Positions 6,398 through 28,539 of a stretch of 62,031 nucleotides of DNA are shown piece by piece. The DNA lies in NCBI GenBank assembly GCA_905236385.1, contig CAJOOY010000056.1:1-62031 (forward strand), written 5' to 3'. Source of the DNA: an uncultured Spirochaetia bacterium (GTDB lineage Bacteria; Spirochaetota; Spirochaetia; Sphaerochaetales; Sphaerochaetaceae). How positions within the stretch are numbered: position 1 is the stretch's first letter; the number at the start of each line of letters is the position of its first letter. Under the pieces are notes generated by a model, which was not told where the DNA came from, did no database searches, and saw only the letters and a list, made by a program, of their open reading frames with translations. The position numbers were made by a program, and so were the translations under genes.

Positions 6398-6563
6398 CGG
6401 CAGTCTTTCCCAGTGAAAGAATTATAATATTCAACAGAAAACTTCTCAATCCATCTTCTTACAAGAATTAACTTGTTGTTAGACACGGTCTTAAGAATAG
6501 GAGCTAACTCATTGAGAACTTGCATAGTTTTTCTGCCAAGTTATCAATGTGATTTTAAATCAT

Positions 6564-6635
6564 ATCATTTTTGAATCGTTTATCAGTTATCACATCAAAA
6601 ATGATGTGATTACTCTTTACAGCCTCAAAAATGAT
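6564..6635. promoter_or_regulatory. Operator array upstream of fic: three copies of TCAAAAATGAT
   Basis: The 11-mer TCAAAAATGAT occurs at 6595-6605 and 6625-6635, and inverted at 6564-6574. Centres are 31 and 30 bases apart, about three helical turns. The middle copy sits within a perfect 9-bp inverted repeat (6589-6597 with 6602-6610, loop AAAA). The third copy lies inside the spacer of the predicted fic promoter. Such placing is typical of cooperative repressor sites; the Fic protein itself ends in a winged-helix-like domain and may be the repressor. Confidence 0.6.
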
Positions 6636-6644
6636 TGGTATTGT
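6616..6644 (+). promoter_or_regulatory. Predicted promoter of fic
   Basis: A -35 box TTTACA (6616-6621), a 17-base spacer and a -10 box TATTGT (6639-6644). The spacer contains one of the repeated operator 11-mers, so a protein bound there would block the polymerase. The start of transcription would fall just before or at the GGAGG ribosome site (6651-6655), giving a very short leader. Confidence 0.5.
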
Positions 6645-6660
6645 ATTATTGGAGGAACAA

Positions 6661-7776
6661 ATGGCATACATATGGCAGAATCCGAAGTGGCCTTCCTATT
6701 CATATAATTCAAAGAAAGTTGAAAAAGCATATGAAAAATTTCTTGAAATAAAGAAAGAGGCTGAAATTGCATTCAGTATTCTGGACGAACAGGCCAGATA
6801 TAGGATTCATGCAAAATCAATAGCTGATGAGATTGTTGCCAGTCTCGGAATTGAAAATGAGACCATCAGTTACGAATCTGTTTACTCATCTGTTTCAAAA
6901 CGACTTGATATACTGCTTGAATTCAACGGTAAGACAGATGCATATGCAGATGCAATTTCTGCTATTACCTTAGATGCAATTAGAAACAATGAACCTCTAA
7001 CAGAAGAAAGACTTAATAGTTGGAACAGAATGCTGTTTGAGAATTATGCAGGACTAAAGCCTCGCAATACTGGGAAATATCGAAATGGACCAGAATACAT
7101 AATCAAAAAAACAGTAAAAGAGCCAGAAATCGTCTATACTGCCGTTCCAGCTGAAAGAGTCCATGCAGAAATGCAGACTCTTCTTGACTTTGTAAATTCC
7201 GATAAAGAAAAGAACCCAATAGTCCAAAGCGCAATAGCTTCTCAATGGTTTGTTGTAATCCATCCTTATGAAGATGGAAACGGAAGAATCTCAAGAGCAA
7301 TATCCGACTACATTCTTGCCGGAATGTCTGAAAAGAAAACCTACAGTATGTCGTCTATTATTCTTGCAAATAGAAAGGATTATTATGAAAAGCTGAATTC
7401 AATCAGCACACAGGACGAGAGCCTTGATTTGACAGACTGGATTGTTTGGAATATAGAAATAGCAGTAAGGGCTCAGGCTAATGCCATTGAAACATTAAAG
7501 AAAACCATGCGTCTCACAAGTTTTATGAGAAATCTAGATCCGTCCGAGTACAACTCAAGGGAGATTTCTATGCTTTACAAGCTTGCCGATGGTACATTTT
7601 ATGGAAAGCTTACAACAGAGAAATGGGTAAAAATGACAAAGTGCTCCAACTCTGCAGCTCAACGCGATATAAAACACTTGGTGGACAATGGATATCTTGT
7701 TCCTGACGGAGACAAGGGCCCAAAGACTGGATATTTCCTCAACACCCTTCTGCTAGACAAACCTATGCTTGTATAA
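6661..7776 (+). CDS. Fic family protein (AMPylase-type) with DUF4172 and HTH-like domains
   Basis: 371 aa. The N terminus (YIWQNPKWPSYSYN) matches the DUF4172 domain found ahead of some Fic domains. The Fic core motif HPYEDGNGRISR lies near residue 198 and supplies the catalytic His and the phosphate-binding Gly/Arg residues; such enzymes usually transfer AMP from ATP to a protein hydroxyl. The last 70 residues look like a winged helix (REISMLYKLADG...LTTEKWVKMTKCSNSAAQRDIKHLVDNG region). A longer frame starts at 6631, but GGAGG at 6651-6655 clearly serves the ATG at 6661. The gene stands alone between divergent and downstream genes and has operator repeats in its promoter. Target protein unknown. 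Confidence 0.88.
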   Translation: MAYIWQNPKWPSYSYNSKKVEKAYEKFLEIKKEAEIAFSILDEQARYRIHAKSIADEIVASLGIENETISYESVYSSVSKRLDILLEFNGKTDAYADAISAITLDAIRNNEPLTEERLNSWNRMLFENYAGLKPRNTGKYRNGPEYIIKKTVKEPEIVYTAVPAERVHAEMQTLLDFVNSDKEKNPIVQSAIASQWFVVIHPYEDGNGRISRAISDYILAGMSEKKTYSMSSIILANRKDYYEKLNSISTQDESLDLTDWIVWNIEIAVRAQANAIETLKKTMRLTSFMRNLDPSEYNSREISMLYKLADGTFYGKLTTEKWVKMTKCSNSAAQRDIKHLVDNGYLVPDGDKGPKTGYFLNTLLLDKPMLV

Positions 7777-7806: not shown

Positions 7807-8631
7807 ATGATTAAGATACTATTTGTCTGCCACGGCAATATATGCAGAAGTCCTATGGCAGAGTTTGTTTTTAAGAAGATGGTAGAGGAAAATGGCCTCT
7901 CATCAGTCTTTGAGATAGATAGTGCTGCTACCAGCACTGAAGAGCTTGGGAACCCAATCTACCCTCCTGCCCGTAAAACCTTGGCCCTGCACGGGATAAC
8001 AAATGCGGAACACAGGGCCCGTCAGGTAACAAAGTCTGACTACAGGTATTTTGATTACATACTTGTCATGGACAACTGGAACATGAGAAACATATTACAG
8101 ATAACCGGCGGGGATCCTGATGAAAAGATTTCTTTGCTGTATGGAGCGGAGATAGAAGACCCTTGGTACACAGGTGGCTTTGACAGGGTTTACAACCAGA
8201 TAGAAAAAGGCTGCAGAAACCTCCTGGACAGAATCTTCTCTTTCTATGGCTCTGATGGAATCAGGACTGATAAGAGAATTCTTCATCTTTATGCTAGGCT
8301 TTTCAGTGCATGGTGCAAAGAAACCTGTGCTCCACGTATGCAGGAAAAGTGGAGCCTCTTAAACAGAACTCTCGGGCAGTGCTCGGTTACTGCCTTCCTT
8401 ACTCAAGATATTCTGGGTGGAGAAGTTTATGGCTCTATGGTGCCTTCTGGAGACCTACACTGTTTCAACCAGATAGGTGGAAAGATTTATGATTTGACCA
8501 GTGACCAGATAGATCAGAGTGGTGAAGTCTGTAACTATGAAAACAGAGTACTCCAGAACCGAGATGAACACTTCTCAAAAGAAGAGAAGTTTAACAGATA
8601 CAGACTCCTAAAAAGACTATTAGAAAAGTAA
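7807..8631 (+). CDS. Low-molecular-weight tyrosine phosphatase fused to YunG-like domain
   Basis: 274 aa, two domains. Residues 1-145 are an LMW protein-tyrosine phosphatase: the P-loop CHGNICRSP (nucleophile Cys, CX5R) near residue 9 and the general-acid loop EDPWYTGG near 118. Residues about 155-274 carry GQCSVTAFLTQDILGGEV followed by an HCFNQIGGKIYDLTSDQI-type segment, which I read as a YunG-like domain (family known only as uncharacterised). LMW-PTPs are normally about 150 aa, so the extra domain is a real fusion in one frame. An AAGGGG ribosome site precedes the ATG. It lies 30 bases after fic and could be read through from it. A hairpin follows the stop. Confidence 0.8.
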   Translation: MIKILFVCHGNICRSPMAEFVFKKMVEENGLSSVFEIDSAATSTEELGNPIYPPARKTLALHGITNAEHRARQVTKSDYRYFDYILVMDNWNMRNILQITGGDPDEKISLLYGAEIEDPWYTGGFDRVYNQIEKGCRNLLDRIFSFYGSDGIRTDKRILHLYARLFSAWCKETCAPRMQEKWSLLNRTLGQCSVTAFLTQDILGGEVYGSMVPSGDLHCFNQIGGKIYDLTSDQIDQSGEVCNYENRVLQNRDEHFSKEEKFNRYRLLKRLLEK

Positions 8632-8666: not shown

Positions 8667-9848
8667 TTATCCAGCTAAACACTTATCAAGTTCAGCAGCT
8701 ATGGCCTTCTTGTCAAGGTTCTTTCCGATTATGCAGATACGGATCATTCTGTCTCCTACATTCTCGTCCCAGTCCTGAACAAGCTGCGGATTTGCATTCA
8801 GTATCTCCCTTCTCTCTGCTTCCGGAGCTGAAGCAACCCACTGTCCGTAAGGGCCGCAGAGAACCTGGCGCCCTGAAGTCTCAAAGACGTAGGCTTCATT
8901 GTACTCATCAGAGAACCAGATAACACCCTTACATCTGATTATTCCCTTAGGCCAGGCATTTACAAATGAGCGGAAAGAGTTACGATCAAACGGAATTCTC
9001 TTATAGTAGATGAATGTCCCTATTCCGTACTCGTCTTCCTCATCTCCCTCATGCTTGTGTTCATGGTGGTGCTCATGATGATGTTCGTGTTCATCTTCGT
9101 CATCGTCATCATCTTCAAGCTCGTCATGGTCTGGGTCCAGCTCGCCTTCTGCCAGGGCCTTGCACCAGCCTGCGCTCTCATAAACTTCTGCAAAATCAAA
9201 GCTGTGGGTGCAGATTATATCCTCAACAGGCACATCTCCATGGCTTGTTTCAAAGACTTTGACGCCTGGATGCAGTGCCTCAATCACCTTCCTGACCTTT
9301 GCCAGATCGGACTCGGAAACCAGATCCTTCTTGTTGATGACCAGAGTTGAACAGAATTCAATCTGCTGGATGAGCAGTGATTCAATATCTTCCTCGTCAA
9401 TGCTTTCCTTCTTAAGCAGGCTGTCGCCACCCGCAAACTCATCTACAAGTCTGGCTGCGTCTACAACACCCACAACATTGTCCACACGGCCGTTTTCAAT
9501 CAGCTCGAGCTCTTGGGCAATCGGCATGGGTTCACAAACGCCTGAAGCCTCAATGAGAATGTAATCGTACTTGCCTGAGGCAATGATTTTCTCTATGTTC
9601 TCAGCCAGCTTGCTTTTTAATGTGCAGCAAATGCAGCCATTTGTAAGTGGGACAATATCACTTGTGTCGGTAATATTAGCACCCTTGGCAATCAGGGAGG
9701 CATCTACGTTAATTTCACCTATGTCATTAACAATAACGGCAACCTTGTAACCTTTCTGGTTGGTAAGAACCTTATTCAAAAGTGTGGTCTTACCGGCTCC
9801 GAGGTAACCACAAAGCAAAGTAATAGGAGTTTTTTTCAAATTTTTCAT
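8667..9848 (-). CDS. CobW/ZNG-type GTPase metallochaperone (COG0523)
   Basis: 393 aa cytosolic G3E-family GTPase thought to deliver a metal, usually zinc or cobalt, to client proteins. Walker A is CGYLGAGKTTLL near residue 13-24; the metal-binding GCICC motif is near 71; the NKKD base-specificity motif is near 178. A His/Asp/Glu-rich linker (HEHHHEHHHEHKHE, about residues 252-266) separates the GTPase from the C-terminal CobW_C domain and is a typical metal-buffering stretch. It lies downstream of a sugar kinase but belongs to no obvious metal locus here; the client is unknown. An AAGGA site precedes the ATG. Confidence 0.88.
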   Translation of the reverse strand: MKNLKKTPITLLCGYLGAGKTTLLNKVLTNQKGYKVAVIVNDIGEINVDASLIAKGANITDTSDIVPLTNGCICCTLKSKLAENIEKIIASGKYDYILIEASGVCEPMPIAQELELIENGRVDNVVGVVDAARLVDEFAGGDSLLKKESIDEEDIESLLIQQIEFCSTLVINKKDLVSESDLAKVRKVIEALHPGVKVFETSHGDVPVEDIICTHSFDFAEVYESAGWCKALAEGELDPDHDELEDDDDDEDEHEHHHEHHHEHKHEGDEEDEYGIGTFIYYKRIPFDRNSFRSFVNAWPKGIIRCKGVIWFSDEYNEAYVFETSGRQVLCGPYGQWVASAPEAERREILNANPQLVQDWDENVGDRMIRICIIGKNLDKKAIAAELDKCLAG

Positions 9849-9890
9849 TACGGTTTTTCCTTCTGAACTAATGTACTAAAAAAACCGCCT

Positions 9891-10793
9891 TTAGAAAACC
9901 TCTGACGAGAGAGGAATAGAAGAAGCAGCCCCATGTCTGCAGACAGCTATTGAAGAAGCTTTAGCAGCAAGTCTCATGCACTCAGAAAGCGGTTTGTTCT
10001 GCATGAGAGAAGCAAAGAAATAGCCGGTAAAGGTATCTCCGGCTGCAGTAGTATCCACAGCATCAACCTTAAAGGAAGGCTGGAAGACCTCTTCTCTCGG
10101 CGTAAAAGCCCAAGCGCCGTGGGAGCCGAGGGTAAGGACTATATTCAAATCCGGCCACTTGTCATGGGCTGCTTCCCAGAAAAGCTTTGGGTTCTCGGCA
10201 ACCACTACATCTTCCTGGTACAAGAACTCCTCCATCAGGTGCTGAGCCTCGACTTCATTGATGATTATCCAGTCCAGTTTGGACCAGTTGATTGAGTTCA
10301 AGGCAAAATCAAACGGAGATGGGTTTAAAACTATCTTAAGCCCATTGTTTGAGGCCGTGTCCACTATCTCTTTAAGGCAGTTGACCTCGTTTTGAAGGAT
10401 TATGTAGTCCCCACTGTCAAATTTTCTGATGGTTTCGTCTATCTGTTTTCTGGTTATGCAGCGGTTTGATCCGCCAAAGAGGATTATGCAGTTCTCGCCT
10501 TCGTTGTTTACCTGGATTATTGCATTGCCCTGCAACTCATCCACATCTTTGATCAAAGATGTATCAACTCCGTTGCTCTTAAGGGTCTCTCTGAGCATCT
10601 GGCCTCCCTTTCCAAGGCAGCCTGCGTGGTAGACCTCAGCCCCGGCGCGGGAGAGCGCTATGGACTGGTTTAGGCCCTTCCCGCCTGCGTTCACTATAAC
10701 GCTATCTGCGGTAATAGTTTCCCCAGCAAGAACAAAGTGGTCAGTTTTGTAGACGTTATCCAAATTCAAAGATCCGAAATTGATTACTTTCAT
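9891..10793 (-). CDS. Ribokinase-family (PfkB) sugar kinase
   Basis: 300 aa. The two PfkB signatures are present: NAGGKGLNQSIALSRAGAEV near residues 36-55 (GGKGxNxA type) and DTTAAGDTFTGYF near 245, containing the catalytic Asp. The closest named type is ribokinase or a related pentose/nucleoside kinase, ATP-dependent. A GTG-initiated frame extends to 10808, but GGTGAGG lies at the right distance from the ATG at 10793. It follows the ABC importer operon on the same strand, with a strong terminator in between, so it may have its own promoter or depend on read-through. It could phosphorylate the sugar brought in by that importer. Confidence 0.82.
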   Translation of the reverse strand: MKVINFGSLNLDNVYKTDHFVLAGETITADSVIVNAGGKGLNQSIALSRAGAEVYHAGCLGKGGQMLRETLKSNGVDTSLIKDVDELQGNAIIQVNNEGENCIILFGGSNRCITRKQIDETIRKFDSGDYIILQNEVNCLKEIVDTASNNGLKIVLNPSPFDFALNSINWSKLDWIIINEVEAQHLMEEFLYQEDVVVAENPKLFWEAAHDKWPDLNIVLTLGSHGAWAFTPREEVFQPSFKVDAVDTTAAGDTFTGYFFASLMQNKPLSECMRLAAKASSIAVCRHGAASSIPLSSEVF

Positions 10794-27412: not shown

Positions 27413-27868
27413 ATGTCAAATAAACTGAGAATAGTCATGGCCAACGACCATGGAGCAACAGAGCTGACAAGGGAGCTCAAGGATTACCTGGAATCCAAGG
27501 GCCATGAGGTAGTGTGGCTTGGCACTCAGACAAATGACAGCGTTGATTATCCCGACCAGGCAGAAAAAGCCTGCAGAGAGTTCCTTAAGGGCTCCTACGA
27601 CTTTGGAATTCTTTGCTGCGGCACCGGAATTGGAATCTCCATCTCCGCCAACAAGATCCACGGCATAAGATGCGCCCTCCCCCAGAACTGCTATGCAGCC
27701 CAGATGGCTAAGGAACATAACAATGCCAACTTCCTGGCCTTTGGCGGACGCATTGACTACCCCGAGTCTCCAACTTCCATGGTTCAGACCTTCATAGACA
27801 CCGCCGTCTCCCCTGAGCCGAGACACAGGAACAGGGAAGCCAAGATGATGGCCCTTGAAAAAGCCTGA
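27413..27868 (+). CDS. rpiB: Ribose-5-phosphate isomerase B
   Basis: 151 aa. Converts ribose 5-phosphate and ribulose 5-phosphate in the pentose phosphate pathway. The N-terminal ANDHGATELTRELKDYL and the central CCGTGIGISISANKIHGIRCA (active-site Cys and anion hole) are diagnostic of the RpiB/LacAB family. GGAGG precedes the ATG, 18 bases after relA; last gene of the prfA-prmC-relA run. Followed by a cluster of palindromic repeats. Confidence 0.93.
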   Translation: MSNKLRIVMANDHGATELTRELKDYLESKGHEVVWLGTQTNDSVDYPDQAEKACREFLKGSYDFGILCCGTGIGISISANKIHGIRCALPQNCYAAQMAKEHNNANFLAFGGRIDYPESPTSMVQTFIDTAVSPEPRHRNREAKMMALEKA

Positions 27869-27892: not shown

Positions 27893-27976
27893 TTTCATTG
27901 AAATGGTGAGGAAAAATGGCTTTTTCAATGAAAGTTTCATTGAAAGACACTTCAAAACAGGCGCTTTTCAATGAAA
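27893..27976. repeat. Cluster of four TTTCAWTGAAA palindromes
   Basis: Copies at 27893-27903 and 27935-27945 read TTTCATTGAAA; copies at 27923-27933 and 27966-27976 read TTTCAATGAAA. The middle two form a perfect 11-bp inverted repeat with one base between. Outer copies are 30-31 bases away. The cluster fills the gap between the end of rpiB and the convergent exported-protein gene and is AT-rich, so it is not a standard terminator. It could bind a protein or form an RNA hairpin at the 3' end of both messages. Confidence 0.65.
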
Positions 27977-28002: not shown

Positions 28003-28539
28003 TTATCTGAGATCACGCCAGCTGCCTTTTATGTAGTGGTCGTAGATGGTAAGGCTCAAAAACACAGAGAAAGTATTCTCTCTGAAGTTCCATGCCACGC
28101 CTATGGGCAGCAGTGACTGTCTATGCCCGGTGTGCGGGGTTCCCATAGATAAGGGAGTGATTCTCAACGTTAGATATGTTGGAGCAAAAACTCCGCTATG
28201 ATCTGAGAAGAAGAAGCCGGCACTGATTATGGTATTCATGTAAAAGCCAGCGTTCTTATCTGCATTTGTTCTGTTTCCAAGAATTGAGTAACCTATCTCT
28301 GTTCCAACTGCCACTTCTGAAAACGGAGACGGAGCAAGCTCTGTTATGGCCTCAACATTCAGCTCAATGCGCTCCGTAAGACCCAAGGAAACGCCTCCAA
28401 GGATGTTCAAACCGTAGTCGCCGTCATGGGCTACAAAACTTCCGTGCCCTATTCTCAGTCCTATATCTCCCAAAAACGTGGAGGCGCAGAGTGGAAAGAC
28501 TAGTAACAATAAAAGACACAGAACAAAAACTCTCTTCAT
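28003..28539 (-). CDS. Exported protein, probable small outer-membrane beta-barrel
   Basis: Not recognised. 178 aa with an N-terminal signal peptide ending near LCAS (residue 18-20). The rest alternates polar and aromatic/hydrophobic residues in short strands (for example LGLTERIELNVEAITEL, VGTEIGYSILGN, TYLTLRITPL), as in small beta-barrels. Ends convergently with rpiB. It is the last gene of a run with the next exported protein 9 bases upstream and the phospholipase-D lipoprotein before that. Confidence 0.65.
   Translation of the reverse strand: MKRVFVLCLLLLLVFPLCASTFLGDIGLRIGHGSFVAHDGDYGLNILGGVSLGLTERIELNVEAITELAPSPFSEVAVGTEIGYSILGNRTNADKNAGFYMNTIISAGFFFSDHSGVFAPTYLTLRITPLSMGTPHTGHRQSLLPIGVAWNFRENTFSVFLSLTIYDHYIKGSWRDLR

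Follow-up and report, generated by a model that had tools for sequence, protein, structure and literature searches.

The question raised by this locus is what controls the fic gene at 6661-7776 of a contig from an uncultured Spirochaetia bacterium, and whether its promoter is governed by the protein that the gene itself encodes. A Fic enzyme is a protein that attaches AMP to other proteins. The window is the whole stretch of 62,031 nt, in which 6398-6660 was tested as the fic upstream region. Autorepression through repeated operators had been proposed from a sequence-only reading. The proposal is supported here by arrays at homologous fic genes, by covariation between recognition helix and site, and by a predicted winged helix. 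With a probability of roughly 85%, the Fic protein would be its own repressor, acting by negative autoregulation.

The 11-mer TCAAAAATGAT was found in three exact copies, at 6564-6574 (minus strand), 6595-6605 (plus) and 6625-6635 (plus), just as the sequence-only reading had placed them. It is a near-palindromic core, ATCA-AAAA-TGAT; therefore, the orientation of a single copy means little. The 11-mer was dropped as a directional operator, and the palindrome ATCA-n4-TGAT took its place. The axes of the three palindromes are at 6569.5, 6599.5 and 6629.5, which correspond to -91, -61 and -31 relative to the ATG at 6661, and the steps between them are exactly 30.0 bp. The regular spacing claimed earlier stands, whereas its value of 30-31 bases does not, since it arose from the register in which the inverted copy was read. 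The consensus palindrome is TAATCnnATCA-n4-TGATnnGATTA. Site B matches it best and holds the perfect 9-bp inverted repeat ATCACATCA-AAAA-TGATGTGAT at 6589-6610, which had rightly been noticed around one copy. The centre of site C falls in the 17-bp spacer between TTTACA and TATTGT, where one copy had also been correctly located. The elements upstream of fic are as follows.

6557..6582, axis 6569.5: putative operator A, 11-4-11 pseudo-palindrome AAATCATATCA-TTTT-TGAATCGTTTA; 11-mer core kept in the closest homolog, L002
6587..6612, axis 6599.5: putative operator B, 11-4-11 pseudo-palindrome TTATCACATCA-AAAA-TGATGTGATTA; holds the 9-bp inverted repeat
6617..6642, axis 6629.5: putative operator C, 11-4-11 pseudo-palindrome TTACAGCCTCA-AAAA-TGATTGGTATT; centred in the promoter spacer
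6616..6621, plus strand: predicted -35 element TTTACA of the fic promoter; kept in L002
6639..6644, plus strand: predicted -10 element TATTGT after a 17-bp spacer; TAATGT in L002
6651..6656, plus strand: ribosome-binding site GGAGGA, read directly from the sequence

The start of fic is likely ATG 6661, with GGAGGA at 6651, rather than ATG 6631, which falls within site C.

The triple of 11-mers within 100 bp appeared in none of 20,000 dinucleotide shuffles of 6398-6660 and in none of 40 shuffles of the window. A phylogenetic footprint was obtained from L002, which is 67% identical and belongs to another genus. All three sites, the 30-bp spacing and the promoter elements are kept in it. Identity between the present locus (L001) and L002 is 33/36 in the sites and 11/12 in the -35 and -10 elements, and 25/52 elsewhere. 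A scan of the 1.40-Mb draft genome for further arrays, as the sequence-only reading had suggested, gave no second array; the search for a regulon with the exact 11-mer returned one additional copy, alone and inside a 589-aa open reading frame (ORF). The pattern CATCA-N4-TGATG with one mismatch gave 96 matches against 35 for the reversed pattern, which is too many for regulon use.

Homologous fic genes devoid of the array had been named in advance as the observation that would speak against autorepression, and the comparison showed that the array is widespread. A near set comprised 22 non-redundant homologs, all 40% identical or more; in the 160 bp preceding these genes, TCA-n4-TGA palindromes numbered 40, vs 4 in the coding controls. 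The distances between axes were 29-30 (8 cases), 39-41 (10), 43 (1), 60 (2), 70 (2) and 81 bp (2). A wide set of 132 homologs from many phyla was examined with an internal-repeat test (p ≤ 0.05). Significant repeats were found upstream of fic in 76/132, compared with 5/132 coding segments, 7/127 far-upstream segments and 12/174 upstreams of neighbouring genes. A repeated 7-mer occurred in 107/113 genes, where the chance baseline is high, and this count was not used as evidence. Distant genes for DUF4172-Fic-winged helix-turn-helix (wHTH) proteins from many phyla carry other half-sites in a fixed geometry. The largest other class has TGCGKnGAWTA half-sites, at 4.0 per gene vs 0.24 in coding controls, with a convergent gap of 7 (54 cases), a divergent gap of 5 (33 cases) and a same-orientation offset of 33-34. 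In the alignment of this GCG class, one half-site coincides in part with a TATAAT-like -10 and a second lies in the expected spacer region, the -35 being weak there. The site of L046 is fully palindromic, TATTCTAATCA-TCTT-TGATTAGAATA, and joins the ATCA-n4-TGAT and GCG designs.

The sequence of the sites follows the recognition helix of the Fic protein encoded next to them, beyond overall relatedness. Helix identity predicted shared repeated 7-mers when Fic-domain identity was controlled (partial Mantel r = 0.18, reached in 0/2000 permutations, the largest being 0.062), although this test is a rough control for ancestry only. Among pairs with 30-40% Fic-domain identity, repeats were shared in 21/21 with identical helices and in 1-3% with dissimilar helices. 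A table of helix classes against half-site motifs is nearly diagonal, with class names that were given after inspection and Fisher tests that are blind to shared ancestry. Asp at helix position 4 predicted GCG-type half-sites (40/9/0/64, uncorrected for ancestry). Two single cases point in the same direction. In L103 (Candidatus Phocaeicola faecipullorum), Asp has been lost inside the GCG group and the sites are GACGAGAATA; the closest relatives of L103 carry Asp and have GCGG sites. In L012, Asp and GCGG sites occur together, and both are missing from the closest relatives. When operators were marked on the Fic tree with 2 mismatches allowed, this loose label proved noisy and said nothing about co-change branch by branch, and a stricter label was used instead.

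The protein was characterised by domain profiles, alignment and structure prediction. The N-terminal DUF4172 is present (PF13776, 52.7 bits vs a cut-off of 25) and the Fic domain passes its cut-off (PF02661). SLGIEN fits the N-terminal inhibitory motif [S/T]xxxE[G/N], and HPYEDGNGRISR fits HPFx[D/E]GNGRxxR with Tyr replacing Phe. In the AlphaFold2 model, whose mean predicted local distance difference test score is 92, there are helices at 299-310 and 319-326, the recognition helix at 330-342, and strands at 346-348 and 358-360. The winged-helix-like C terminus of the sequence-only reading is upheld by this model and by a full-chain match to 8CIL, the structure of CbFic2 from Coxiella burnetii. 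CbFic2 is the nearest solved relative (E 7e-48 by sequence; Foldseek TM 0.86, root-mean-square deviation 3.1, full chain), with SoFic and the other Fic structures further away. DUF4172, Fic motif, inhibitory motif and winged helix are all found, which places the protein in the CbFic2-type DUF4172-Fic-wHTH class II. The features of the gene are as follows.

6661..7776, plus strand: fic gene, 371-aa DUF4172-Fic-winged-helix protein (Pfam, PADLOC, AlphaFold2 model)
6841..6858, plus strand: inhibitory-helix motif SLGIEN of class II Fic, residues 61-66; S61 and E65 invariant in alignment A1
7261..7296, plus strand: catalytic Fic motif HPYEDGNGRISR, residues 201-212, intact in alignment A1
7555..7740, plus strand: predicted C-terminal winged-helix DNA-binding domain, residues 299-360 (AlphaFold2 model)
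7642..7686, plus strand: recognition helix with its N-terminal turn, residues 328-342; residues 329-334 covary with operator class (model and covariation)

The following mechanism is proposed. The C-terminal winged helices of Fic dimers would bind the three palindromes 30 bp apart. Because 30 bp is close to three helical turns, the bound dimers would share nearly the same face of the DNA. Site C is between the -35 and the -10, so that its occupancy would block RNA polymerase, and this block would hold a potentially toxic AMP transferase at a low level. The array and the gene would form one transferable unit, the sites having diverged alongside the recognition helix between lineages.

Known systems resemble this locus in part. 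CccR of Yersinia pseudotuberculosis represses its own promoter via inverted repeats near the -35 and -10, as demonstrated by footprint, reporter, electrophoretic mobility shift assay and isothermal titration calorimetry (PMC9755527). It likewise has a Fic domain with a C-terminal DNA-binding domain, and inverted repeats at the -35 and -10 of its own promoter are also present at fic. CccR thereby shows the principle in a Fic protein of distant sequence, and it is a type VI secretion system effector, a role that is not implied for the present Fic. For CbFic2, DNA was reported to make the protein dimerise and change over from AMPylation to deAMPylation, random DNA being used (PMC10628234). It shares the DUF4172-Fic-wHTH class II architecture and binds DNA through its HTH. 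CbFic2 is proposed to act on host histones, whereas the present protein, from a spirochaete-like genome, shows no sign of an effector role. The PADLOC SoFic profile (PDLC03963) matches residues 18-362 with 144 bits and E 1.7e-42, and the score for the NCBI SoFic equivalog NF046030 is far lower than its cut-off (59.8 vs 550 bits). The SoFic/Sofic anti-phage proteins are likewise single-gene class II Fic proteins (PMC12249575), and PMC10628234 notes that SoFic was not shown to bind DNA. A small antitoxin, AS1, is encoded downstream of Sofic in E. coli, whereas directly after the present fic there is no room for one. The gap 3' of fic is 30 bp. Type II toxin-antitoxin operons also combine a toxin-type enzyme, repeated palindromes in the promoter and negative feedback. 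Unlike in those operons, a single polypeptide here combines the enzyme, its intramolecular inhibitor and the DNA-binding domain, and no antitoxin gene was found.

Several other explanations were weighed. Chance repetition in AT-rich DNA could draw on a weaker pair-only repeat test, which is not significant at this locus alone (p = 0.12) in an AT-rich stretch; the chance reading is hardly credible and is refuted by the shuffles without the triple, by the identical spacing in the independent genus of L002 and by the family-wide enrichment. The inverted repeat at 6589-6610 scores as terminator-like on the plus strand, and it might work as RNA, as a terminator or attenuator. This is very improbable, since the repeat is upstream of the fic -35 and hence untranscribed from the fic promoter, its tail TACTCTTTAC is poor, and palindromes of this type are found again as DNA sites at steps of 30 and 40 bp. 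The terminator reading was rejected by this position upstream of the promoter. It is also improbable, if less so, that the array is bound by some other transcription factor, of which fic is merely a target. Palindromes in promoter spacers can serve host regulators, and the binding of Fic here is something that we infer. Against this, the sites track the adjacent Fic helix across phyla beyond relatedness, which makes a third-party regulator unlikely; in addition, there is no second array of this 11-mer in the genome, and the genes beside fic are not conserved.

The strongest of these alternatives, though still unlikely, regards the array chiefly as an enzymatic switch: an operator-bound Fic dimer would be deAMPylating or inactive, free monomers would AMPylate, and repression would be secondary. 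CbFic2 is reported as an AMPylating monomer and a deAMPylating dimer on DNA (PMC10628234), and the inhibitory and catalytic motifs are both intact in this Fic. In L001, L002 and the aligned GCG-class genes, however, promoter and sites overlap, which points to transcription first, and few chromosomal sites would hold only few molecules. As a hypothesis by analogy with the DNA-induced dimerisation and activity switch of CbFic2, the array may set enzyme activity in addition to repressing. A wider version, which we offer only tentatively and consider doubtful, takes DUF4172-Fic as a one-gene toxin module in which the array serves as operator and as allosteric ligand alike. Dimers bound to it would be non-AMPylating repressors; if the operator DNA or its occupancy were lost, as might happen when the chromosome is degraded or seized by a phage, expression would rise and AMPylating monomers would be freed; array and helix would co-evolve by a readable code.

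Autorepression by Fic itself must also be set against the points that weigh against it. Sites A and C are imperfect beyond the core. The CccR operator is a single pair, AGATAATCAT-N26-ATGATAATCT, of 10-bp repeats 26 bp apart, whereas three 11-4-11 palindromes with axes 30 bp apart are present here. The limits of the covariation tests given above count in the same way. Binding by Fic, occupancy by dimers or higher-order forms, repression, and a role in toxicity or defence are what we infer from sequence, and Fic could instead activate, or act both ways.

Other observations concern the surroundings and the relatives. L033, a locus of the same genome family, and the named record L081 are equally identical to the query and share their upstream DNA, and on this ground the family appears to be Sphaerochaetaceae-like spirochaetes. 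At 7807-8631 (plus strand), 30 bp past the fic stop, a low-molecular-weight protein tyrosine phosphatase is fused to a YunG domain. This gene and the flanking symporter gene are absent beside the fic homologs, among which no conserved antitoxin partner was found; an operon or antitoxin partner for fic was dropped because the neighbours are not conserved. Four copies of TTTCATTGAAA / TTTCAATGAAA lie in about 85 bp at 27893-27976, between an RpiB-like ORF (27413-27868, plus) and a facing ORF (28003-28539, minus). They are perhaps two-way terminator hairpins or another operator array, and the exact 23-mer joining two copies was absent among 40 relatives. In L108, L099, L104 and L106 (-8 to -13), a half-site reaches or enters the start codon, as in many GCG-class relatives, and the -10 is about 20 bp upstream; this suggests nearly leaderless mRNAs in many relatives of that class. 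Paired DUF4172-Fic genes occur in one genome at G126:C352:7978-9081 and 9497-10579 (L031, L079) and in another at G082:C12 (L059, L060). L031 and L079 have differing helices and separate upstream repeats, and they could show insulation between paralogs. At L103, 115 bp upstream of fic, the operator changes from GCGGAGAATA-type to GACGAGAATA together with an apparent Asp-to-Ala change in the helix, which makes it a natural, ready test case for a recognition code.

That a Fic-wHTH protein represses its own gene has already been published for CccR, the only such case found, and 'seldom described' was a correct description (PMC9755527). What is new is the family-wide array and the apparent helix-operator code. 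The open-licence literature searched showed no phased multi-palindrome array, no account of its presence throughout DUF4172-Fic and no helix-operator covariation, which is weak evidence of absence. The specific site of CbFic2 is called an open question by its authors (PMC10628234), and the arrays provide a predicted cognate site for much of the family. The CbFic2 helix, TSRTTAYRELHDL, is similar to those of the class whose half-sites are GAAGCGAWTA. The arrays thus offer a simple relation of helix to operator, by which the sites of other members would be predictable from the helix alone, and they suggest that self-repression is the ordinary way of keeping one-gene Fic systems quiet.
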